This document shows, in pieces, positions 22,930 to 58,075 of a DNA stretch of 64,000 nucleotides. The notes below the pieces were generated by a model. That model worked only from the letters and a program-made list of their open reading frames with translations, had not been told where the DNA came from and made no database searches. Within the stretch, counting starts at the first letter, position 1; each line of letters opens with the position of its first letter. The DNA comes from Maribacter sp. HTCC2170 (GTDB lineage: Bacteria; Bacteroidota; Bacteroidia; Flavobacteriales; Flavobacteriaceae): assembly GCF_000153165.2 (NCBI RefSeq), contig NC_014472.1, positions 3,406,001 to 3,470,000 on the forward strand, written 5' to 3'. Made by a program: the position numbers and the translations under genes.

Positions 22930-23685
22930 TTATTCCAACCATAACTTAAAGTCTCGGACTCGCTCCCTACTTACAATGATTTCTTGGTCAATATAGCGAT
23001 TTAATTTGATTTTCAATCGCGAATTTGTGTAAGAAATGATGTCTTGGATATGGTTAATATTGATGTAATATTTTCTACTCACCCGGAAAAAAATCTTGGG
23101 TTCAAGTTCAGATTCCAAGTTTTCCAAAGTGGTGTCAAGTAAATAATTCCTACCATCAGAAGTAGCAGCATAGGTACCTTTATTTTCGCTATAAAAACAC
23201 TCTACCTCATCGGCATTTATAATTTTCAAGTGCTGCCCTACCCTAGTGGTAAATCTTTTTTTGTATTCTCTTTCAATTGGGTTGACCAACAACTTTTTTA
23301 TGTCGTCAAAATCCAATGACAATTTTTGTGATGTTGGTTTTAACGCTTTGAACTTTTTCACTGCACTTTCCAATTCCTCATCATCAATCGGCTTCAATAA
23401 ATAATCAATGCTATTTAATTTGAAAGCTTGCAACGCATATTCGTCATATGCAGTTGTAAAAATTATTGAGCTCTGAACATCTACATGATCAAAAATTTCA
23501 AAGGAGAGTCCGTCTGATAATTGTATGTCCAGAAAAATAAGGTCTGGATGGTCATTAGCTTCAAACCAGGTAATTGATTCTTCTACAGAATGTAGCATCG
23601 TTGACACCTCAACATTCAACTCTGATAATAATCGACTAAGTCTTCTTGCCGCAGGTTTTTCGTCTTCTATTATAATTACATTCAT
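22930..23685 (-). CDS. LytTR-family response regulator of the 2TM operon
   Basis: The 251-residue product is a receiver-LytTR regulator. The receiver occupies about 1-120 with the acidic pocket IIEDE, phosphoacceptor Asp53 in IFLDIQLSDG, Thr in FTTAYDE and the Lys in LLKPIDD. The LytTR DNA-binding domain runs from about 145 to 251 (FTTRVGQHLKIINADEV, FFRVSRKYYININHI), ending in a Trp-Leu-Glu tail. Such proteins bind direct repeats upstream of few targets. It is the last gene of a six-gene minus-strand operon that also holds a LytS-type kinase, 32 bases after the last 2TM gene. The paired 31-bp elements upstream of this operon and of its 2TM part are candidate targets. Confidence 0.92.
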   Translation of the reverse strand: MNVIIIEDEKPAARRLSRLLSELNVEVSTMLHSVEESITWFEANDHPDLIFLDIQLSDGLSFEIFDHVDVQSSIIFTTAYDEYALQAFKLNSIDYLLKPIDDEELESAVKKFKALKPTSQKLSLDFDDIKKLLVNPIEREYKKRFTTRVGQHLKIINADEVECFYSENKGTYAATSDGRNYLLDTTLENLESELEPKIFFRVSRKYYININHIQDIISYTNSRLKIKLNRYIDQEIIVSRERVRDFKLWLE

Positions 23686-23717: not shown

Positions 23718-24071
23718 TTAATTATTTTTTTCAAGGTATTTCTTGATCTGTCTTTCTTCCCATTTTTTGATGAAGCCGGAAGCAGATTTTGTTTTATTCG
23801 ATTTTATAACATTGAAAGCAAAAAGCCCATGAATCAATACTCCTACCCCCCATAGCAGCGGTGTGCTGACCAAATTGATCATCCACCAATAGTGAAAATC
23901 AGGATCAATAATGTCTTGCCAATTAAACTGGTTATATAAGGTTGCATAAACCCCAACTAGTACGATATTAACAGCAATATATACACTGAGATGCCTGTAA
24001 AACCTCTTAATACCATCCACTCTCTTTTCGGCCTTCTTTAACAGTACTCTTCCATTTATATTCTCCTCCAT
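23718..24071 (-). CDS. 2TM-domain membrane protein 1
   Basis: This 117-residue protein has one 2TM domain: a basic amphipathic helix with KKAEKRVDGIKRFYRHL, two membrane helices (VYIAVNIVLVGVYATLY and the region ending LLWGVGVLIHGLFAF), and a cytoplasmic tail ending FIKKWEERQIKKYLE. The same plan, including the RV-x-x-(I/L)K-x-FY motif, G-x-G-x-x-x-HG and WEE-(R/K)-x-I-x-(K/E)-(Y/F), is found in the two neighbouring proteins and in the C-terminus of the kinase. Its start codon shares one base with the stop codon of the preceding 2TM gene (TAATG), which indicates translational coupling. The function is unknown; membrane-level signalling with the kinase is inferred. Confidence 0.85.
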   Translation of the reverse strand: MEENINGRVLLKKAEKRVDGIKRFYRHLSVYIAVNIVLVGVYATLYNQFNWQDIIDPDFHYWWMINLVSTPLLWGVGVLIHGLFAFNVIKSNKTKSASGFIKKWEERQIKKYLEKNN

Positions 24072-24412
24072 TACCTATATTTTTCAGCTTCGTTCCTATC
24101 TTTTTCCATATACTTCTGAATTTGCTTTTCTTCCCAATTTTTACCTAAAATAGGATTGTGCGAAAAGACTTTTGCACCATGAAAGAATACACCAATACCC
24201 CAAAAGAACCATACAGCAAATGTTCCAAAATCAAAAAACACATCAGTAAAACTTTTACCTTCCCCTAAATCGCTCATAATCTTCATTGTAGTAATAAAGG
24301 TGTTCACCATAATATAAACAGTTAAATGAATATAGAACCCCTTTAACTCCTCTACTCTTTTTTTGGCTCGTTTTAATTTACCTCTATCGTTGTTGTCGTC
24401 TATTACTTCCAT
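24071..24412 (-). CDS. 2TM-domain membrane protein 2
   Basis: The 113-residue protein has the 2TM layout: RAKKRVEELKGFYIHL helix, first membrane helix (VYIMVNTFITTM), second helix with FWGIGVFFHGAKVF, and the signature tail NWEEKQIQKYMEKD. Compared with the other copies it has a longer loop between the two helices (GEGKSFTDVFFDFG). It overlaps its upstream neighbour by 10 bases and its downstream neighbour by one base, so the three 2TM genes must be translated from one message. Confidence 0.85.
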   Translation of the reverse strand: MEVIDDNNDRGKLKRAKKRVEELKGFYIHLTVYIMVNTFITTMKIMSDLGEGKSFTDVFFDFGTFAVWFFWGIGVFFHGAKVFSHNPILGKNWEEKQIQKYMEKDRNEAEKYR

Positions 24413-24726
24413 CTCCTTTGTTTTTCATCGTCCTGCATATACTCCTTAATCTTACGTTCTTCCCAATTTCTACCAAAAAACGGGTTTAATTCAAACGCTT
24501 TAAGCGCGTGAAATATAATGCCTATACCCCAACCAAAAGCGGCCCATAAAAACCAAGGGTACCTCCATTCATCGGTCCAATAATTAATACCGGCCAAAAA
24601 GGCTATGAAGAATATATACGACATTAGATTTGTATAGAATTTTTTAATACAATCTACTCTCTCTTTTGCTCTAAAATACTTTCTGTCTTTTTCTGAAGTT
24701 TCCATTTTCTTGTTGGTTTTTTCCAT
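24403..24726 (-). CDS. 2TM-domain membrane protein 3
   Basis: The 107-residue protein is the copy closest to the kinase tail: RAKERVDCIKKFYTNL, two membrane helices, the GWGIGIIFHALKAFELNP segment and NWEERKIKEYMQDDE. The kinase's own C-terminus reads GWGFGVTVHGMEVFGYNP and GWEERKIRKFMDDD at the same positions, so one was probably derived from the other. The gene is first in the distal half of the operon. Its 88-base upstream gap contains a candidate operator and a TACTTTTG -7 box, so the distal genes can be transcribed separately from the kinase. Confidence 0.85.
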   Translation of the reverse strand: MEKTNKKMETSEKDRKYFRAKERVDCIKKFYTNLMSYIFFIAFLAGINYWTDEWRYPWFLWAAFGWGIGIIFHALKAFELNPFFGRNWEERKIKEYMQDDEKQRRWK

Positions 24727-24739
24727 TTATTTATTACTT

Positions 24740-24747
24740 CAAAAGTA
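24740..24747 (-). promoter_or_regulatory. -7 box of an internal promoter before the 2TM genes
   Basis: On the minus strand TACTTTTG (24747-24740) matches TAnnTTTG exactly and lies 13 bases upstream of the 2TM-protein-3 start codon. No TTG occurs at the -33 distance, which would fit a promoter needing an activator. Exactly 31 bases separate it from operator copy A. Confidence 0.5.
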
Positions 24748-24778
24748 TAATGTAGGCTACCATTTATTAAACATTCAT

Positions 24779-24809
24779 TACCCAATTGTCATTTTTCGTG
24801 GATGGATTG
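24779..24809 (-). promoter_or_regulatory. Candidate LytTR operator, copy A
   Basis: A 31-base element between the kinase stop codon and the 2TM genes. Read on the minus strand it is CAAtCCATCCAC..AAAA..ACAATTGGGTA, identical at 26 of 31 positions to copy B upstream of the whole operon. Both copies have the same orientation and the same 31-base distance to a -7 box. Binding by the operon's own LytTR regulator is inferred, not shown. Confidence 0.55.
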
Positions 24810-24814
24810 ATTAA

Positions 24815-26137
24815 TTAGAACTGATCGTCATCCATAAACTTTCTAATCTTACGTTCTTCCCAGCCCTTCCCCCATAAAGGGTTATAACCAAAAACCTCCA
24901 TCCCATGCACTGTCACTCCAAATCCCCAACCCAAAGTCGGGAAAATTATCCAAGGAAAACTGGTTGTATTGTAATTGAGAATAGCCAGACAGGGGATTAC
25001 AATTAAATATGCCGTAAGATTGCCATAAAACCCTTTAAGTTGTTCTACATGCTCCTTGGCCTTTTCATAGCGTTTGTCATCTATATATGTTTGTTGTGTT
25101 TCCATTACTGATACTTGTTTTGTGAGCAAGGGGATTTTTACTCTAAAATCATTAGTTGATTTTGTGATTTCCACTTGCCTATCTGTTAATATTCCGTAGC
25201 GTTGTTGAATATTTTGCAAGCCTACTCCACTACTCTTTTTTACTACCTGTTTTGCCTGGAGGTTATTTTCAACTATTAGCATACCTTCTTCTTCATAAAC
25301 CTTTAAATACAATGGTTTTGCAGACGTCACAATATTATGCTTTACAGCATTTTCTAACAACAATTGTAATGAAAGGGGAACAATTTTAGCTTCTGGATTA
25401 ATACTTTGATCTGGTATATCAAGATGTATACTATCCTCAAACCGCATTTTTAAAAGCTTAACATAGGTTTTGGCAAATTGAAACTCTTCATCAACTGAGA
25501 CCAAATCCTTGTTTTTCTGTTCCAGCACGTATCTATACACTTTTGATAATGAAGTTGTGAACTTTTGAGCTTGATACGGATCTTCCTCTATCAAACTGGT
25601 CAAAACATTCAGACTATTAAATAGAAAGTGTGGATCCAGTTGGTTTTTAAGGGCATCAAATTTTGCTGAAGCTGTACCAGCAATTATTTTCTGTTCCTTG
25701 ACCTTTTTATCCTGTAAGGCTCTATAGAAGTAGAATGCATGAAAGAAAAGTGTTACAATTAATGCAATTGCCAGAGCTATCAGGTAATAATTTAGCTTCT
25801 CACCTGCAATAAACTGCCCCAAAGTCTTGCCATAAATAACAACTGATAAGAACATCCGAATCAACCCATAAGTAATCACAGTTATTATAATGGAGCCAAT
25901 TGAGCCAACCAATAGCCTTTTTGTGGCCTGTGTCTCCCAACTGTACTTTTTCGAAATATATTTATTGTAATAGGCATTCACCATAGTCAACGAAAAAGCA
26001 AAAACGAAGTTCCATCCCATGAATTCGAGTTGCTCGAGCAATTCAAACTCGGTATTCCAATAAACAATCCTTGATACCAAGCCTATAGCCAAGGTAACAA
26101 CAATACTGATTTTCAATAATTTCCAAAACTCCTTCAT
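24815..26137 (-). CDS. LytS/YehU-type sensor histidine kinase with C-terminal 2TM domain
   Basis: The 440-residue kinase has four predicted membrane helices in residues 1-145, a short helical linker (residues about 145-165), and a His_kinase domain of the LytS class from about 165. The phosphoacceptor lies in LDPHFLFNSLNVL, the N-box is LLLENAVKHN, and the G-box is SGVGLQNIQQRYG. Residues about 350-440 are an added 2TM domain (RYEKAKEHVEQLKGFYGNL, GWGFGVTVHGMEVF, GWEERKIRKFMDDD) that matches the free 2TM proteins downstream. No extracellular sensor domain is present, so the signal is probably sensed in the membrane. It follows the TPR-like gene after four bases, and its cognate regulator ends the operon. 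Confidence 0.92.
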   Translation of the reverse strand: MKEFWKLLKISIVVTLAIGLVSRIVYWNTEFELLEQLEFMGWNFVFAFSLTMVNAYYNKYISKKYSWETQATKRLLVGSIGSIIITVITYGLIRMFLSVVIYGKTLGQFIAGEKLNYYLIALAIALIVTLFFHAFYFYRALQDKKVKEQKIIAGTASAKFDALKNQLDPHFLFNSLNVLTSLIEEDPYQAQKFTTSLSKVYRYVLEQKNKDLVSVDEEFQFAKTYVKLLKMRFEDSIHLDIPDQSINPEAKIVPLSLQLLLENAVKHNIVTSAKPLYLKVYEEEGMLIVENNLQAKQVVKKSSGVGLQNIQQRYGILTDRQVEITKSTNDFRVKIPLLTKQVSVMETQQTYIDDKRYEKAKEHVEQLKGFYGNLTAYLIVIPCLAILNYNTTSFPWIIFPTLGWGFGVTVHGMEVFGYNPLWGKGWEERKIRKFMDDDQF

Positions 26138-26141
26138 ATAA

Positions 26142-26762
26142 TTACTTACAATTTTTCAATACTTCAATAGCTCTATCTTGGCCCCAATTCGGATGAAAAG
26201 GTGCCTCCGGTTTAAAGTTAGCAAAAAGTTCCAAGGATCGTTCAATATCCTTACAGAAGGGAGTTGTGTCCTGCCCAAAGAATTTGGCTGACCCCATGTC
26301 CCATTCAGCTTTGGAGAACAAAACTCTTGGGTTCTCTGGATTCAATTGCAAAGCTTTTTGGTACAAGGCTACGACCTTTCCAGAATATAACATGCCATAT
26401 GTAGCCCCATCAAATGCCACCCACGCCGTATAGATCATGGCCTGTTGCACCAAAATTTCAGGATTATCGGGAGATATAGCCTTTGCTATATCAATGAATT
26501 CCTGCGCTTTCTCTAACTGCTGGGTTAGTTTCTCTTTGTCTTTTTCCCCAAAGGATGCCACGGTATTAACTTGTGCGGCATAATAGGCAGGCAACCAATT
26601 ATCAAGTTCAGCAGATGAGATTCTTTCAAACATATTTGCAGCCTCAGTGTTTTTACCTTCACCCCATAATTGAAATGCTTTTTCCATTCCGTTGGTGTAT
26701 CTATCCTGAGCCATTGAGATAGTGGCAACAAATAATAGCATTAATGTAATTCCTTTTTTCAT
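26142..26762 (-). CDS. Secreted TPR-like protein, first gene of the kinase operon
   Basis: This 206-residue protein has a signal peptide (LLFVATISMAQ) followed by about four helix-turn-helix units resembling tetratricopeptide repeats, e.g. AFQLWGEGKNTEAANMFE and KVVALYQKALQLNPENPRVLFSKA. Two cysteines remain in the C-terminal half (PFCKDI and LKNCK), possibly forming a disulfide. The position four bases before the LytS-type kinase suggests that it is a periplasmic partner or client of the kinase system. TPR-like proteins without known partners are common, so this is inference. The gene begins 67 bases downstream of operator copy B. Confidence 0.75.
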   Translation of the reverse strand: MKKGITLMLLFVATISMAQDRYTNGMEKAFQLWGEGKNTEAANMFERISSAELDNWLPAYYAAQVNTVASFGEKDKEKLTQQLEKAQEFIDIAKAISPDNPEILVQQAMIYTAWVAFDGATYGMLYSGKVVALYQKALQLNPENPRVLFSKAEWDMGSAKFFGQDTTPFCKDIERSLELFANFKPEAPFHPNWGQDRAIEVLKNCK

Positions 26763-26789
26763 GATTTTAGTTTTTAATTATTAATGGCC

Positions 26790-26814
26790 CAAAATTGAAT
26801 TATTAGCTTGAATA
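26790..26814 (-). promoter_or_regulatory. Predicted promoter of the kinase operon
   Basis: On the minus strand a TTG is followed after 17 bases by CAATTTTG (26797-26790), one mismatch from TAnnTTTG. It lies 28 bases upstream of the TPR-like gene's start, and exactly 31 bases separate its -7 box from operator copy B. Confidence 0.4.
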
Positions 26815-26828
26815 CAAAAAAAAAGAAA

Positions 26829-26859
26829 TACCCAATTGTAGTTTTAGGTGGATGGGTTG
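26829..26859 (-). promoter_or_regulatory. Candidate LytTR operator, copy B
   Basis: This is the second 31-base element, CAAcCCATCCAC..AAAA..ACAATTGGGTA on the minus strand. A further partial repeat of the ATTGGGTA part lies 33 bases further upstream (around 26862-26870), that is three helical turns. Direct repeats are the usual mode of LytTR binding. The element lies between the divergent kinase operon and the COG2509 gene, and could influence both. Confidence 0.5.
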
Positions 26860-26892
26860 TATACCCAATTTATTTCTTGACTTTATTTAAAG

Positions 26893-26900
26893 TAATTTTG
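26893..26900 (+). promoter_or_regulatory. -7 box very close to the COG2509 start (possible leaderless mRNA)
   Basis: TAATTTTG is an exact TAnnTTTG match whose last base is only four bases before the ATG at 26905. Transcription would begin at or next to the start codon. A TTG at 26877-26879 gives a spacer of 13 bases, shorter than usual. Confidence 0.4.
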
Positions 26901-26904
26901 ACCC

Positions 26905-28458
26905 ATGGTCAGACAAATTCAACTTAGGGTTTCTTTAAAGGAAGAATCCCAAAAAGATATTCTATTAAAAAAAGTCGCAAAATATCTGAGTGAACCAGAA
27001 AAGGACCTGACCATAAAGGTTTTACGAAGATCAATTGATGCCCGAAAATCCACCATTTATTTTAATTATAAGATGGAGGTCTACATTCGGGAACAGCCGA
27101 ACGAAAAACCCACATATGCTTTTGATTACAAAGATGTATCAAAAGCGAAGGAGGTACATATAGTTGGGTTTGGACCTGCTGGTATGTGGGCTGCACTAAG
27201 ATGCCTTGAATTGGGCTACAAACCAATTGTACTTGAACGCGGGAAAAAAGTTCAGGAGCGAAGACGTGACCTAAAGGCCATAAACCAAGACCATATTGTA
27301 AACGAAGACTCCAATTACTGCTTTGGAGAAGGCGGTGCAGGTACATACTCTGATGGTAAATTATATACACGAAGTTTAAAAAGAGGAGACGTAAAACGTA
27401 TTTTCGAAAGTTTGGTGCATCACGGAGCAACCGAACAGATACTAATTGATGCCCATCCCCATATTGGTACTAACAAACTCCCAAAAATTGTTCAAAATAT
27501 TCGTGAAACCATAATCAAATTTGGAGGTGAAGTCCATTTTGAAACCAGAGTTACCGATTTTGTTATCAAGAATAAAAAACTTGTGGCAATCGCTCTCCAA
27601 AATGGAAAGGAATTGAATGTAAAACGGGTGGTTCTTGCCACAGGTCATTCAGCGAGGGATATTTTCTATCTACTGAAAAACAAAGAAATAGCCTTAAAAG
27701 CAAAATCTTTTGCAATGGGCGTTCGGGTTGAACATCCCCAGCGAATAATAGATTCTATTCAATACCATTGTAAAGGGGAAAGAAATGAATTATTGCCAGC
27801 TGCGGCATATAGTTTGGTTCAACAGGTGAAAAATAGAGGTGTCTATTCTTTTTGTATGTGCCCAGGTGGATTCATAGTGCCAGCGGCTACAGCTCCAGGA
27901 GAAGTCGTTGTAAACGGCATGTCGCCTTCAAAACGAAATAATCTATTCGCCAATTCTGGTATTGTGGTCGAAATAAATGTTGATGAAGATATTCCGAAAT
28001 ACGAAAAATTTGGTGTGTTAAAAGGTTTGGAATATCAAAAAGATTTGGAACGACTCGCATTTACTGCTGGAGGGCGCAGCCAAGTTGCCCCGGCCCAACG
28101 ATTAACTGACTTTGTTGAAGGAAAGCTTTCCAATGACCTCAACCCCACATCTTATCAACCAGGATTAAAATCTGCTCCCCTACATTCATTATTGCCCAAA
28201 TTAATTGGTAGTAGACTTAGAAAAGGGTTTTCCGAATTCGGAAAGAAAATGCATGGCTATCATACCCTCGAGGCCAATATAGTTGGAGTAGAATCAAGGA
28301 CTTCATCCCCAGTAACGATTCCCAGAAATGACAACTTGGAACATATTCAAATTGAAGGACTTTTCCCCTGTGGTGAAGGCGGTGGTTATGCCGGCGGTAT
28401 CGTTTCGGCCGCCATGGATGGTGAACGTTGTGCAGAGGCTGCGATACGTGGTCTTTAG
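26905..28458 (+). CDS. COG2509-type FAD-dependent dehydrogenase
   Basis: The 517-residue cytoplasmic flavoprotein has an N-terminal alpha/beta domain of about 80 residues (VRQIQLRVSLKEE, KVLRRSIDARKSTIYFNYK), followed by a Rossmann FAD-binding motif at about 86 (IVGFGPAGMWAALRCLE). Then come the CFGEGGAGTYSDGKLYTR segment, VVLATGHSARD, and a C-terminal FAD site ending FPCGEGGGYAGGIVSAAMDGERCAEA. These features identify the uncharacterised COG2509 family. The substrate is unknown. It diverges from the LytS kinase operon and is followed after 66 bases by the RNA helicase, with a separate -7 box between them. Confidence 0.9.
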   Translation: MVRQIQLRVSLKEESQKDILLKKVAKYLSEPEKDLTIKVLRRSIDARKSTIYFNYKMEVYIREQPNEKPTYAFDYKDVSKAKEVHIVGFGPAGMWAALRCLELGYKPIVLERGKKVQERRRDLKAINQDHIVNEDSNYCFGEGGAGTYSDGKLYTRSLKRGDVKRIFESLVHHGATEQILIDAHPHIGTNKLPKIVQNIRETIIKFGGEVHFETRVTDFVIKNKKLVAIALQNGKELNVKRVVLATGHSARDIFYLLKNKEIALKAKSFAMGVRVEHPQRIIDSIQYHCKGERNELLPAAAYSLVQQVKNRGVYSFCMCPGGFIVPAATAPGEVVVNGMSPSKRNNLFANSGIVVEINVDEDIPKYEKFGVLKGLEYQKDLERLAFTAGGRSQVAPAQRLTDFVEGKLSNDLNPTSYQPGLKSAPLHSLLPKLIGSRLRKGFSEFGKKMHGYHTLEANIVGVESRTSSPVTIPRNDNLEHIQIEGLFPCGEGGGYAGGIVSAAMDGERCAEAAIRGL

Positions 28459-45077: not shown

Positions 45078-45189
45078 TATTTACAGTTGGTCCTATAAAA
45101 ATTACAATTGGGAAACAACAATTTTATCTTTTAATCTATTAAGAGCAATTTTACACCATAATTAATAGCAACATTTAAAAAATACAACC

Positions 45190-45442
45190 ATGAAAGCATC
45201 AATTAACAGAACAATTACAGAATCAAAAACTGGACAGTACTTTTCTTCTTTTAGGGGAAGTAAAAGAATACAATGGGCCCAATACAGAAACTTTAATAGA
45301 TAAGGCCAATCCACAATCAGAAAACAAAATCATGAAAACATTCATCAATCAATCACCAAGGGCATCTAAAAAAATTGAAATATTCGTATCATTTAAGGAA
45401 TATGGGACAATTCGATGGTCATCTCCAACTGACCGCTTTTAG
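45190..45442 (+). pseudogene. Two small ORFs, possibly a frameshifted small gene
   Basis: The first ORF (45190-45303) encodes 37 residues beginning MKASINRTITESK; the second (45332-45442) encodes 36 residues beginning MKTFINQSPRASK. The second frame is open without stops from 45194 to 45442, across the first ORF's end, and reads plausibly protein-like around GEVKEYNGPNTETL. A one-base shift near 45250 would join the two into a single chain of about 84 residues. Whether this is a small gene, two tiny genes or a decayed remnant cannot be decided. It is directly followed by a strong terminator, which favours a transcribed unit. Confidence 0.35.
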
Positions 45443-45525: not shown

Positions 45526-45639
45526 ATGGAGCCAATAATTAAAATTGACTTAATAGCCATAGTAATACTCTTAGGGATTTTTCTAGGAGTCTTTATATCG
45601 TACTTTATTATCAAAAAATCCTTGCTCAAGATTACTTAA
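45526..45639 (+). pseudogene. Truncated copy of the N-terminus of the adjacent AraC-type regulator
   Basis: The 37-residue ORF beginning MEPIIKIDLIAIVILLG aligns without gaps to the first 34 residues or so of the regulator that starts at 45700. In the 28-residue core (IKIDLIAIVILLG...SYFIIKKS against VNIDFIAIVILLG...SYFLIKKS) 20 positions are identical. The copy breaks off after KKS and ends with a stop eight codons later at the latest. A TATATTTG -7 box at 45513-45520 is five bases before its ATG, so it could still be transcribed and make a single-helix membrane peptide. It is most simply a remnant of a tandem duplication. Confidence 0.7.
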
Positions 45640-45685
45640 CCCCTTTGTTATGCATTAAGTTTTCCTTCTCAATAAGCTAAAAAAA

Positions 45686-45697
45686 CCTAAATTTAGG
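45686..45697 (+). promoter_or_regulatory. 12-bp palindrome adjoining the AraC-type gene start
   Basis: CCTAAATTTAGG is a perfect inverted repeat ending two bases before the ATG. It could be an operator covering the translation start or simply an AT-rich coincidence. Confidence 0.3.
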
Positions 45698-45699
45698 CT

Positions 45700-46857
45700 A
45701 TGCAAGATATACCCGTGAACATTGATTTTATTGCCATAGTCATACTATTAGGTTCATTTTTAAGTATTTTCACTTCGTACTTTCTTATTAAAAAATCGTG
45801 GAGTGCGAACTTACCAAACCTCTTCATGGGCCTTTTTCTATTGGCAATTGGACTAAGCATGATGGAGGGGTGGTTGAATTATACAAACATTGTATTCAAG
45901 GTGTTATGGTTGACCAATTTTTCAGAACCGACTAATTTTATAATTGCTCCCTTAATTTTTTTGTTTGTCGCATCCCAATTTAAGGATTTCAATAAAAGGA
46001 ACTATTGGTTGCATTTTATTCCATTTGTCCTTTGGTTGGGCTATTGTTTCTTCTTTTTCATTCAATCGAACGAGATGAAATATAGTTCCACTATTGAAGT
46101 AATGCAACTGGATTACCCAAGGGTCAAAGGCACGGGCAAAATTTTCGATGACCCTTTGAACATTAGGCCTTTTATAAATATAGCAACAGGAATATCATTT
46201 GTGATTTATAATATGCTGATTTTAAGATTGATTTTTATAAAGTCAAAATCCTTAGGGCAGACCATCTTCAACACTTCGAATCAGACATTGAAAACAATAC
46301 GAAACTCGCTCTACCATTTCGTCATTATAATCATCATTTTTATAGTGGTGAAATTGGTTTTTAAAAATGATGTTGGCGACTATTTCATCTATTTGTATGT
46401 GACATTTATGGTTTTCTTGACGGTTGCCCAAATCATGAATAAATCTGATTATTTCAACGAAGTATCCACCTTTCTAGAAGTACCAAGTTTAAAATACAAA
46501 AAGTCATCGCTCGATGATGAAGAAAAAAATGTTATTCTCAACAACATTGTTTCTAAAATGGAAAATGATAGATTTTTTCTAAAGAGCACAGCTTCTTTAT
46601 CCGGTTTGGCTAAGTCAATTAATGAATCCCCGCATCATGTTTCTCAAGTTATTAATGAAAACCTTGGGCAATCTTTTTTTGAACTTATGGCCACCTACCG
46701 GGTTCGAGAAGCGCAAGCAATTTTAAATACTGAATTGGGTAAAAAAATAACCATCGAAGAAGTCGCAGAACGAGTGGGTTATAACTCAAAATCGGCATTT
46801 AATACCGCATTTAAGAAAATTACCTCTCAGACACCCTCTATGTTTAGAAATTCGTAA
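45700..46857 (+). CDS. Membrane-anchored AraC-family transcriptional regulator
   Basis: The 385-residue regulator has about seven membrane helices in residues 1-245 (the first, IAIVILLGSFLSIFTSYFLI, is the part duplicated just upstream). The C-terminal AraC DNA-binding domain spans about 285-385: two helix-turn-helix units, SLSGLAKSINESPHHVSQVINE and ITIEEVAERVGYNSKSAFNTAFKKITSQTPSMFR, the latter with the family signature. Such regulators couple a membrane signal to transcription. A 12-base palindrome CCTAAATTTAGG ends two bases before the ATG and may be an operator. The acyltransferase gene follows after 123 bases and is a likely target. Confidence 0.9.
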   Translation: MQDIPVNIDFIAIVILLGSFLSIFTSYFLIKKSWSANLPNLFMGLFLLAIGLSMMEGWLNYTNIVFKVLWLTNFSEPTNFIIAPLIFLFVASQFKDFNKRNYWLHFIPFVLWLGYCFFFFIQSNEMKYSSTIEVMQLDYPRVKGTGKIFDDPLNIRPFINIATGISFVIYNMLILRLIFIKSKSLGQTIFNTSNQTLKTIRNSLYHFVIIIIIFIVVKLVFKNDVGDYFIYLYVTFMVFLTVAQIMNKSDYFNEVSTFLEVPSLKYKKSSLDDEEKNVILNNIVSKMENDRFFLKSTASLSGLAKSINESPHHVSQVINENLGQSFFELMATYRVREAQAILNTELGKKITIEEVAERVGYNSKSAFNTAFKKITSQTPSMFRNS

Positions 46858-55273: not shown

Positions 55274-57433
55274 TCATAAATTGTCTAACTGGTTACTGTT
55301 TTTATCGTTGCTAATGGTCCAAAAGAACCCTACAAAGAAGAAAGTTTCTGCAGATGGTCTAATTGTTCTCCGTTCAAAAACTCCATTCATTTTAGCTTCA
55401 TTAGCATATTGATATCCGTTTACATTATTGAAACCCAGAGCATTGTTAATAGAGAAATAAAGTATTTTCTGTTGAGAGACAAGATACGCCCAATTGAAAC
55501 TCAAATTATTGTATGATTTGGTTTTTCCAGTTAGAAATGTGTTGGAATTTGGATTGTTATATGGTCTGCCCGAAGCATAATTATAGGAGAATCCTACTTG
55601 TGAACGTAAGTCTTCTACCCAATACTTGGTCACCAGCGAAAGGTTATGTTTTGGTGCAAAGTTGGGGGTTGCCTTTTCTTCAAAATTCAAATAATCACGC
55701 TCTGTATCTAAATAAGAATATGACACCCAATAATCCAGATTCTTGATGTTTTTATTATCCCTCCAAAAAACGTCAAGTCCTGCTGCATAACCACTCCCCA
55801 GGTTGTTGTATTCTGAGTTGAACTGTGGTCGTAATGTATTATACTTCACTAATTTGTCATAATCTTTGTAATAGGCTTCTGCCCTAAAAGTTTTGCCATT
55901 ATCCAAATACTGGTAATTAAAGATATAATGTGAAGTCTTTTCGGAATCAAGAGCTTCATCAAATTTCAAATATTCTACAGAAGGGTTTTGATAAAAATCC
56001 CCATAGGCCAAAGAGAATTGCCCCTTATCACTGCTCTTGTAGGCTAAAGAAACTCGTGGTGAAACATTGAATAGATTCATCGCATTTGAGTTTTCGGCCC
56101 GTAAACCCAATTTCATGGCAAATCTATTGCTGAAAAATATGTCGGCCTCACTAAATACCGCGAACAAATCATCGTTGAATTTACTTTCAAAGCTAGAGCC
56201 GTTCTGGGTAGTAAATAAATCATCATAATTCATATTAAAATACTCACCACCAAAATTTAATTGAAACCGGTTGCTAAAGTTCTTGCGTAATTTAAGTTTA
56301 AGGTGTGCTCCTATTTCCTTGGTTTCAATATCATCGGAAATAATTTCAATTTTATTCTTATCCATAGATATACTTGCACCAGTTGAAAGGGTCCAGTCAT
56401 TCTCCAAATAATGCTTGTATGATGAATTAAAGTAGAGGTTGTTGTTCTTTAATTTAAACCTTACGAAGTCTTCATAATTTATGTCTTCCTGTGAAATATC
56501 AAGATTACTATGATTAAAACCTGTATACAGTTTAAATATATTTTTCTCCCCTTTACTACGGAATACTGCTTCTCCAGAAATAGATTCATAGGGCCTGTTC
56601 CATTTTGTTCCTTGAGTGGAAGGAACCAATTTTTCGTAAGGGGCTAAATTAATGTATGAGGTATTTATACTCAATGATTCGTCTCCCCAAATCTCTGTAT
56701 GCCCTACTCCACCTCCAACAGACATTACAGAAATATCTGTTTTCTCTTGCTCGGGCTCATCAGTAGTATTCAACAATAATACACTTGAAAGCGCCTGACC
56801 ATATTCCGCAGAATAACCCCCAGTACTAAAAGTGATTCCTTTAAAAAGAAATGGTGAAAACCTTCCCCTAGTAGGAATATTATTGGCCGTTGCGCTAAAA
56901 GGTTGAAAAACCCTTAACCCGTCAATGAACACCTGCGTTTCACCTGCAGCTCCACCACGTACAAACAATCGGCCGTCTTCACTTACTGTACTTGTTCCCG
57001 GTAAGGTTTGCAGCGCTCCCACGAAATCTCCCGCCGCACCTGCCGTAGTAACAATATCCAGTGGTTTAAGAACTGATACTTTCGAATTATCACCTGCCTC
57101 AAAGGAACCAGCTGTCAAGGTAACCCCGGACAAATGATTTATCGCTTCGATCATTTTAATTTTCAAATCTTTGAAATAAGATACATCTCCCATTTCATAA
57201 TGAGTTTCATAGGTAATAGCGGAAACAATCAATGTTTGTGACCCGCTTTCCATGGTTTCAAATTCGAAGTTTCCATTATCATCGGTCGAAGATCCATCAT
57301 AAGTTCCTTCTAAATAAACGTTTGCCCCTATAACAGGATTGTTTTTTGAATCAGTAACGGTACCTGATACTTTGGTTTGGGAATGGGCAATCGTAGATAT
57401 GAGAATTACAGTAATTAAGACTAATTGTTTCAT
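55274..57433 (-). CDS. TonB-dependent outer-membrane receptor
   Basis: The 719-residue product has a signal peptide (VILISTIAHSQ), a carboxypeptidase-regulatory-like N-domain (about 20-95: VSGTVTDSKNNPVIGANVYLEGTYDG), a plug domain (about 115-225: GALQTLPGTSTVSEDGRLFVRGG, QVFIDGLRVFQPFS), and a beta-barrel that ends in a C-terminal aromatic strand (FFFVGFFWTIS). No SusD partner is next to it. The substrate may be a sugar, siderophore or peptide. Its start is divergent from the DUF2141 gene and it leads into the FG-GAP gene. The nearby SLC45 transporter suggests, but does not show, a shared carbohydrate substrate. Confidence 0.9.
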   Translation of the reverse strand: MKQLVLITVILISTIAHSQTKVSGTVTDSKNNPVIGANVYLEGTYDGSSTDDNGNFEFETMESGSQTLIVSAITYETHYEMGDVSYFKDLKIKMIEAINHLSGVTLTAGSFEAGDNSKVSVLKPLDIVTTAGAAGDFVGALQTLPGTSTVSEDGRLFVRGGAAGETQVFIDGLRVFQPFSATANNIPTRGRFSPFLFKGITFSTGGYSAEYGQALSSVLLLNTTDEPEQEKTDISVMSVGGGVGHTEIWGDESLSINTSYINLAPYEKLVPSTQGTKWNRPYESISGEAVFRSKGEKNIFKLYTGFNHSNLDISQEDINYEDFVRFKLKNNNLYFNSSYKHYLENDWTLSTGASISMDKNKIEIISDDIETKEIGAHLKLKLRKNFSNRFQLNFGGEYFNMNYDDLFTTQNGSSFESKFNDDLFAVFSEADIFFSNRFAMKLGLRAENSNAMNLFNVSPRVSLAYKSSDKGQFSLAYGDFYQNPSVEYLKFDEALDSEKTSHYIFNYQYLDNGKTFRAEAYYKDYDKLVKYNTLRPQFNSEYNNLGSGYAAGLDVFWRDNKNIKNLDYWVSYSYLDTERDYLNFEEKATPNFAPKHNLSLVTKYWVEDLRSQVGFSYNYASGRPYNNPNSNTFLTGKTKSYNNLSFNWAYLVSQQKILYFSINNALGFNNVNGYQYANEAKMNGVFERRTIRPSAETFFFVGFFWTISNDKNSNQLDNL

Positions 57434-57649
57434 TTTATTTGATTGTTGATTTTATAGGACAAAACTGCCCCGTTTTTAAATCTAGAACCAAATCATTTGA
57501 CCGAAGTGTCATTTTTAAAGGATGAAATGTGAGATGAAATCGAGGTTACAATTCACACCAAAAATTCAACAACTGGGTAAATTGTTTTTCGATTGAGAAT
57601 TGCTATTTCAGAGATTTGAACCAATGAATAACAATAAAACCTTAACATT

Positions 57650-58075
57650 ATGAAAACACTTAAAACCTTAATCATTATTGTAAAAATTGCATTAACAAGT
57701 TCAATGAATGCACAAGAAACAAATGGCAGTACTGTAACGGTGAACATTGAAAATGTTCTTTCTGACGAAGGCCAAATACTTGGAGCTTTGCACACAGAAG
57801 AAACTTTTATGAAAGGACCTGGTCTTTTTAATGAGACACTTAAAGCCAGTAAGGGAAATATCACCCTTACTTTCAAAAATGTACAACCAGGCACTTTTGC
57901 GATTATGCTACTACACGACGGAAATGAAAATAATAGAATGGATTTTGAGGCCAACGGAATGCCCAAAGAGGCATATGCAACTTCGGGAGAGATGGAACTA
58001 TATGGTCCACCGACCTTCAAGGCTTCCAAATTTGAGGTTACCAATGAAGATTTGGAGTTTAGCATCAGGTTTTAA
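57650..58075 (+). CDS. DUF2141-family secreted protein
   Basis: The 141-residue product has a signal-like N-terminus (MKTLKTLIIIVKIALTSSMNAQ) and the DUF2141 beta-sandwich pattern: VTVNIENVLSDEGQILGALH, ITLTFKNVQPGTFAIMLLHDGNENNRMDF with the conserved H-D-x-N-x-N-x-x-x-D motif, and MPKEAYATSG. The family is abundant in Bacteroidota; its function is unknown, though the acidic motif suggests calcium binding. It is divergent from the TonB receptor and followed by a perfect bidirectional terminator shared with Dps. Confidence 0.85.
   Translation: MKTLKTLIIIVKIALTSSMNAQETNGSTVTVNIENVLSDEGQILGALHTEETFMKGPGLFNETLKASKGNITLTFKNVQPGTFAIMLLHDGNENNRMDFEANGMPKEAYATSGEMELYGPPTFKASKFEVTNEDLEFSIRF

Follow-up and report, generated by a model that had tools for sequence, protein, structure and literature searches.

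A 64,000-nucleotide stretch of Maribacter sp. HTCC2170 (the window; contig NC_014472.1, forward-strand positions 3,406,001 to 3,470,000, numbered here from its first base) carries an operon encoding a TPR-like protein, a LytS-type histidine kinase, three 2TM-domain proteins and a LytTR response regulator. Two near-identical elements mark it, one before the whole operon (P1) and one before its distal half (P2). Comparison of orthologous loci makes it very probable that these elements are tandem operators through which the operon's own LytTR regulator activates, in parallel, the TPR-kinase genes, the 2TM/regulator block and a small set of envelope genes.

The two elements (24779-24809 and 26829-26859, minus strand) share their orientation and 26 of 31 bases. 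Each is exactly 31 bases from a -7-like box, TACTTTTG at 24740-24747 (exact) and CAATTTTG at 26790-26797 (one mismatch). A first-pass annotation had reported these copies, positions, identity, orientation and distances, all of which were borne out by re-examination of the letters. Its conserved blocks survived in part: the core is present in both copies, but the blocks obscure a direct repeat of ~9 bp with a 21-bp period. It had also set 12 bases between CCATCCAC and ACAATTGGGTA. The real spacer is 8 bases, and the search pattern it proposed was therefore mis-spaced. A scan of the 3.87-Mb genome for the core CCATCCAC-N8-ACAATTGGGTA gives two perfect matches and, with up to three mismatches, a single further place, inside an open reading frame (ORF). 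Chance origin was rejected by simulation: 25 Markov-1 windows gave one direct 31-mer pair in total with at least 26 of 31 bases alike within 6 kb, against three in the real window, the element pair included.

Operator anatomy was derived from 80 orthologous loci using an iterated 31-bp (31-column) matrix. The matrix returned 163 sites on the operon strand, one on the opposite strand and none when reversed, counts that are not independent because it was trained on those loci; a blind pattern scan, described below, provides the independent test. The profile is a direct repeat of ACARTTCRT (positions 0-8) and ACARTTSRG (positions 21-29) with 12 bp between. Column correlation reaches 0.70 at offset 21 and stays at or below 0.23 at all other offsets from 5 to 49. 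An inverted-repeat operator was rejected, its best column correlation being 0.43 compared to 0.70 for the direct repeat. Promoter geometry was read from 155 sites with enough flank, selected without use of the -7 box. All 155 have T at position 40 and TT at 67-68, 154 have A at 64 and 134 have G at 70. In 130 of the 155, a TAnnTTTG box (up to one mismatch allowed) lies exactly 31 bp away, and no other single offset has such a box in more than 10 sites. The -33 region itself is only T-rich. From the profile together with the fixed positions and box distance, the unit is therefore 9 bp-12 bp-9 bp-10 bp-(-33)-19 bp-(-7).

This layout agrees with that of reported LytTR operators. LytTR operators comprise two repeats of 9-11 nt, 11-13 nt apart (PMC4847170), placed ~10 bp upstream of the -35/-33 region (PMC6193735); here a 9-12-9 direct repeat ends 10 bp from the invariant T at position 40. 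In Flavobacterium psychrophilum the -7 box is reported to span -12 to -5 (PMC9723704), a position from which the transcription starts in Table 1 were predicted. If the box spans the same interval here, the half-site centres fall near -71 and -50 and the operator centre near -60. The main text of that transcription-start paper does not mention LytTR.

The -7 box is itself unusual at its first base. In 129 regulon sites the first base of NAnnTTTG is G in 66, C in 51, T in 9 and A in 3. Boxes of the same form that lie in the same loci 15-70 bp ahead of other ORFs (≥150 aa) begin with T in 58 of 91 cases, A in 19, C in 8 and G in 6. G or C opens 117/129 regulon sites versus 14/91 other boxes (Fisher p 1.7e-31, inflated by relatedness). 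A change of the first base weakens a -7/-10 element. We read the off-consensus [G/C]AnnTTTG box as probably selected to make the promoter dependent on its activator, which offers a clean prediction on activator-dependent promoters in Bacteroidota.

Both operators recur at the operon in other genomes. Of the 80 loci, 78 yielded the kinase ORF, and all 78 have a P1 site (defined as lying ≤1.7 kb upstream of the kinase ORF). P1 and P2 (≤2.2 kb after the kinase ORF, before the 2TM/regulator block) are both kept in 63 of them, supporting the parallel control of kinase and 2TM/regulator block that had been suggested from the window's letters. The first downstream ORF mostly begins ~20-50 bp past the box. 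At the window's P2, the listed ATG of the first 2TM gene (24726) leaves only a 9-nt leader from the predicted transcription start; a second, in-frame ATG at 24705 is in line with nine same-genus sites, where the gene starts 27-42 bp after the box. Beyond P1, within 26893-26905, an exact TAATTTTG box ends 4 bp short of the ATG of a divergent gene for a flavin adenine dinucleotide (FAD)-dependent protein, which may therefore be leaderless or start at a later codon.

Presence of the site follows this kinase. Among 249 Flavobacteriaceae genomes (kinase called at E ≤ 1e-90, site at E ≤ 1e-4), the kinase is found in 192 and the site in 187, with both in 183, kinase only in 9, site only in 4 and neither in 53 (Fisher p 1.1e-39, uncorrected for kinship). 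The element is thus conserved in 183/192 family genomes that have the kinase, a check proposed by the first-pass annotation. LytTR domains are more widespread, occurring in 234/249 genomes, including 42 without the kinase. The site is absent from 38 of these 42 and present in four, and a general LytTR motif unlinked to this system was rejected on this ground; the generally small size of kinase-negative genomes may accentuate this contrast. The earlier proposal of LytTR operators gains support from the reported LytTR geometry and from a distribution that tracks this kinase, not LytTR proteins generally.

The gene families behind the element are few. The blind scan of 299 family genomes with the window-derived core (≤3 mismatches) gave 16 matches, compared to 3 for the reversed pattern. 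Leaving aside the window's own two, 11 of 14 fall at regulon genes: nine directly before a 2TM or DUF2141 gene, one ~0.4 kb before a kinase gene (L036) and one before a TPR-kinase pair (L046). The remaining three (L003, L035, L044) do not. Of the 163 sites in the orthologous loci, 44 have a kinase/2TM gene as the best-matching ORF that starts within 250 bp, 38 a TPR gene, 36 a 2TMa gene, 19 a DUF2141 gene and 15 a receptor gene; 11 have none. Sixty further sites, hand-picked and mostly far from a kinase, have as first ORF a receptor (23), DUF2141 (22), TPR (5), kinase/2TM (3) or other gene (7). The last group comprises two DUF2807 genes, two short ORFs before a kinase and, judged by eye, an ABC ATPase, an ankyrin-like protein and a 205-aa protein. 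In a wider sample of 295 class-level genomes, sites were found in six genomes outside the family, plus eight within it. The four of these six that were examined have their sites before 2TM-kinase, receptor, TPR-2TM-kinase and DUF2807 genes; two of the four matches span just the operator part of the model R1.

R1 is a sequence-only model of 122 sites and 74 columns, with strong sites taken as E ≤ 1e-4. It finds five strong sites in the whole genome: P1, P2 and three new ones (Table 1). Each stands just upstream of an ORF start, so the random placement that the first-pass annotation named as a check was not seen. Two of the new sites lie head-to-head between the TonB-receptor-like and DUF2141 genes. 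These two further targets in the window (57459-57530 and 57547-57619), like the direct-repeat structure and the off-consensus -7 box, were not in the earlier annotation. Other head-to-head operator pairs on opposite strands occur at G160 C1:529296/529379, G010 C22:10537/10625, G008 C201:3860/3949 and G001 C1:628770/628941. The third new site, at 45082, precedes a 37-codon ORF. An apparent degraded copy of the start of an AraC-type gene lies at ~45540-45700 (gene at 45700; repeat 45544/45721), and a gene once regulated by the 45082 site may have decayed.

Weaker matches extend the list. A beta-lactamase-fold gene follows a sixth genome match (20.4 bits, E 0.002), and a DUF2807 gene 7.5 kb outside the window follows a match of 14.9 bits (E 0.12, alone not significant). 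This weak DUF2807 site is credible because strong sites precede DUF2807 genes elsewhere (L165, L174) and because, in a same-genus genome (L254), a 23.9-bit site is followed by a gene similar to DUF2807, its family judged by eye. The DUF2807 gene to the right of the window (L133 45-2357; genome C1 ~3476000-3478400) follows a PspC-Toastrack gene, with the weak operator between the two. Through these neighbours a link of the system to phage-shock-like genes is possible. By visual inspection only, the TPR, DUF2141 and receptor proteins carry signal peptides and DUF2807 has a lipobox-like stretch.

Table 1. Positions of predicted operators and promoters and of the associated genes in the window
Feature	Position	Strand	Details
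P1 operator, upstream of TPR-kinase	26829..26860	-	Half-site 1 ACAACCCAT 26852-26860, 12-bp spacer, half-site 2 ACAATTGGG 26831-26839; R1 49.3 bits, E 1.9e-12
P1 core promoter	26790..26820	-	-33 region TTTT 26817-26820, 19 bp, -7 box CAATTTTG 26790-26797; predicted start ~26785
P2 operator, upstream of 2TM-2TM-2TM-regulator block	24779..24810	-	Half-site 1 TCAATCCAT 24802-24810, 12-bp spacer, half-site 2 ACAATTGGG 24781-24789; R1 40.9 bits, E 8.5e-10
P2 core promoter	24740..24770	-	-33 region TTAA 24767-24770, 19 bp, -7 box TACTTTTG 24740-24747; predicted transcription start ~24735
206-aa TPR-like protein, first gene of P1 operon	26142..26762	-	Weak TPR matches, best E 7.2e-5
LytS-type histidine kinase, C-terminal 2TM domain	24815..26137	-	Pfam PF06580, PF13239
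Three 2TM-domain genes	23718-24071, 24071-24412, 24403-24726	-	Pfam PF13239 over cut-off in each
LytTR response regulator (receiver + LytTR), proposed operator binder	22930..23685	-	Pfam PF00072, PF04397 over cut-off
New predicted operator-promoter before DUF2141 gene	57547..57619	+	ACAATTCAC-12-ACAACTGGG, -7 box GAGATTTG 57611-57618; predicted start ~57623; R1 33.7 bits, E 1.5e-7
DUF2141 protein, proposed regulon member	57650..58075	+	Pfam PF09912
New predicted operator-promoter before TonB-receptor-like gene	57459..57530	-	ACATTTCAT-12-ACACTTCGG, -7 box CAGTTTTG 57460-57467; predicted start ~57455; R1 29.1 bits, E 4.1e-6
719-aa TonB-receptor-like protein, proposed regulon member	55274..57433	-	Pfam PF00593, PF13715, PF13620, PF07715
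New predicted operator-promoter before 37-codon ORF at 45190	45082..45153	+	ACAGTTGGT-12-ACAATTGGG, box CAATTTTA; R1 31.5 bits, E 7.0e-7

By the features tested, the system is a LytS/LytTR two-component system: a PF06580 kinase adjoins the regulator gene, and the regulator has a receiver domain, a LytTR domain and a phospho-acceptor aspartate. Residues E7, D8, D53 and K98 of the regulator are invariant in an alignment of 27 orthologues. In AgrA the motif FFRCHNS, the most conserved of LytTR domains, places R198, N201 and S202 on DNA (PMC4227749). Matched by eye, it reads FFRVSRK here, with R201, R204 and K205 invariant. The predicted model of the whole regulator is weak (mean predicted local distance difference test score 66.9, predicted template modelling (TM) score 0.42), and for this reason its LytTR part alone was used; block means are 82-93 from residue 161 on. 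This part resembles the DNA-bound AgrA chains 3bs1 and 4xqj with a target TM score of 0.78-0.79. The top-scoring fold match of the regulator model is full-length ComE. Sequence searches of the PDB with the regulator returned chiefly receiver domains and, weakly, the LytTR chain 3d6w (E 0.0014 profile, 0.11 domain); AgrA was not among the matches listed.

Sequence shows the operator anatomy, the fixed promoter geometry, the conservation, the target families and the co-occurrence with the kinase; beyond these, we infer the following mechanism. A signal, probably from the envelope, would trigger the 2TM-tailed kinase, which would phosphorylate the operon's LytTR regulator at D53. Two regulator molecules would bind each operator side by side, at half-sites ACARTTCRT and ACARTTSRG, and recruit RNA polymerase to a promoter held weak by its off-consensus -7 box. 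Because the same operator stands at P1 (TPR-kinase) and P2 (2TM-2TM-2TM-regulator), sensor and regulator would be amplified in parallel, giving positive feedback. Output would pass to unlinked envelope genes: TonB-receptor-like, DUF2141 and, from a weak site in this genome, DUF2807. That the free 2TM proteins pair with the kinase, as inhibitor or sensor, is a guess suggested by the kinase having a 2TM domain of its own.

Other explanations of the elements were weighed. They could be LytTR operators bound by another LytTR regulator of the genome, acting either in place of the operon's own or jointly with it. At least 19 LytTR matches were counted in the window genome, and different LytTR proteins are able to use common sites, as in the overlapping HdrR and BrsR regulons of Streptococcus mutans (PMC6193735). 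Such cross-regulation is nevertheless unlikely, given that the element marks the operon encoding this regulator in 78/78 loci and that the 38 genomes noted above have LytTR domains without this kinase and lack the site. We give slightly less weight to a regulator that represses, or acts both ways, with negative feedback as the result. The sign of regulation is not readable from sequence alone, and AgrA represses the bsaA promoter from a downstream site (PMC4227749). The operators here, however, lie upstream of -33 at a fixed distance, where LytTR sites known to activate are also placed, and a -7 box that is off-consensus in most sites suits an activator-dependent promoter. It is highly improbable that the likeness of the two elements reflects coincidence or a functionless local duplication, even though the operon contains repeated 2TM genes and the copies share a strand, 2 kb from each other. 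Their flanks are unlike each other, the motif is kept at both positions in 63/78 loci, and unlinked genes carry it too; local duplication was discarded on the dissimilar flanks and the conservation in orthologous loci.

Several observations weigh against activation by the operon's own regulator through these operators. Many sites are related by descent, and the p-values therefore overstate independence. The window's P2 departs from the family pattern, its half-site 1 and -7 box both beginning with T, and no intact long ORF follows the site at 45082. Among the 71 loci with full flanks, P2 is missing while P1 is kept in 13 (L080, L106, L111, L113-L116, L119, L120, L122-L124 and L126); by their titles, nine of the 13 belong to Aquimarina. 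Within the family, the site (E ≤ 1e-4) is absent from nine of the 192 genomes with the kinase, and four genomes have the site without the kinase at E ≤ 1e-90. Outside the family, where the kinase threshold was E ≤ 1e-60, four genomes pass it yet lack a site at E ≤ 1e-4, and the six genomes that do carry a site all fall short of it. A laxer rescan of the nine kinase-only genomes and two order-level kinase genomes yielded nothing beyond weak matches; those in G251 (22.1 bits, 0.75 kb before the kinase) and G160 (21.4 bits, just after it) are clearly adjacent to the kinase. Matches in G328 (19.3 and 18.8 bits) lie ~1.1 kb after and 3.2 kb before the kinase, and a weak match in G104 lies 2.3 kb from a LytTR gene. 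In the one site-only genome examined (G244), a diverged 2TM/kinase/LytTR cluster (L203) follows the site.

With activation by the operon's own regulator, a two-component system present in 192/249 sampled Flavobacteriaceae genomes would gain both its operator and its regulon. It would tie the 2TM, DUF2141, 720-aa TonB-receptor-like, 206-aa TPR-like and probably DUF2807 families (role obscure) to one regulator, making joint testing of their function possible. A broader reading is offered tentatively, at somewhat less than even chances: the system may be a core envelope-signalling regulon of Flavobacteriaceae, reaching beyond the family within Bacteroidia. In it, a free 2TM array would modulate the 2TM-bearing LytS-type kinase via 2TM-2TM contacts. 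The LytTR activator, with its fixed-geometry operators, would drive inner-membrane (2TM), secreted (TPR, DUF2141) and outer-membrane (TonB-receptor-like) proteins, with DUF2807 a probable member. Such a regulon would be a functional counterpart of the Psp, Lia and Cpx responses, the last being an envelope response. We found no description of this regulon in the one open-access library searched, which does not establish its absence from print. A two-component paper on Riemerella was set aside, as it describes an unrelated OmpR-type system.

Among known systems, AgrA of Staphylococcus aureus offers a close parallel. Its operators at agr P2/P3 consist of two direct repeats centred near -60, with a sub-optimal promoter downstream, and adjoin the regulator's own operon (PMC4227749). 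Its LytTR fold is similar to that of the model predicted here. In contrast, the repeat sequence, the sigma-A type and the target genes differ, as does the FFRCHNS motif. The LytTR Regulatory Systems (LRS), namely HdrRM and BrsRM of S. mutans and LRS-like Bacteroides operons, have 9-bp repeats, usually spaced by 12 bp and preferentially placed 10 bp upstream of -35, as well as membrane-protein partners and positive autoregulation, the last of which we infer here (PMC6193735). LRS lack a kinase, and those of S. mutans have a membrane inhibitor; the present system has both a kinase and a receiver domain and is therefore not an LRS. The Bacteroides LRS-like repeats also differ, being 11 bp with 11-bp spacing and of dissimilar sequence (PMC6193735). 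YpdA/YpdB of Escherichia coli shares the LytS-type kinase, LytTR response regulator and tandem direct repeats (PMC4847170). YpdB, however, has the single direct target yhjX (PMC4847170), whereas here the operator stands before the system's own operon and several envelope genes, and the system includes 2TM domains as well. Likeness to Psp/Lia comes from DUF2807, a Toastrack family (PMC11237479) and probable target, lying beside a PspC-Toastrack gene in this genome; the core here differs in being a LytTR system with 2TM proteins. The operator geometry is thus already known, and by analogy these operators probably work like those of AgrA, YpdB and LRS.

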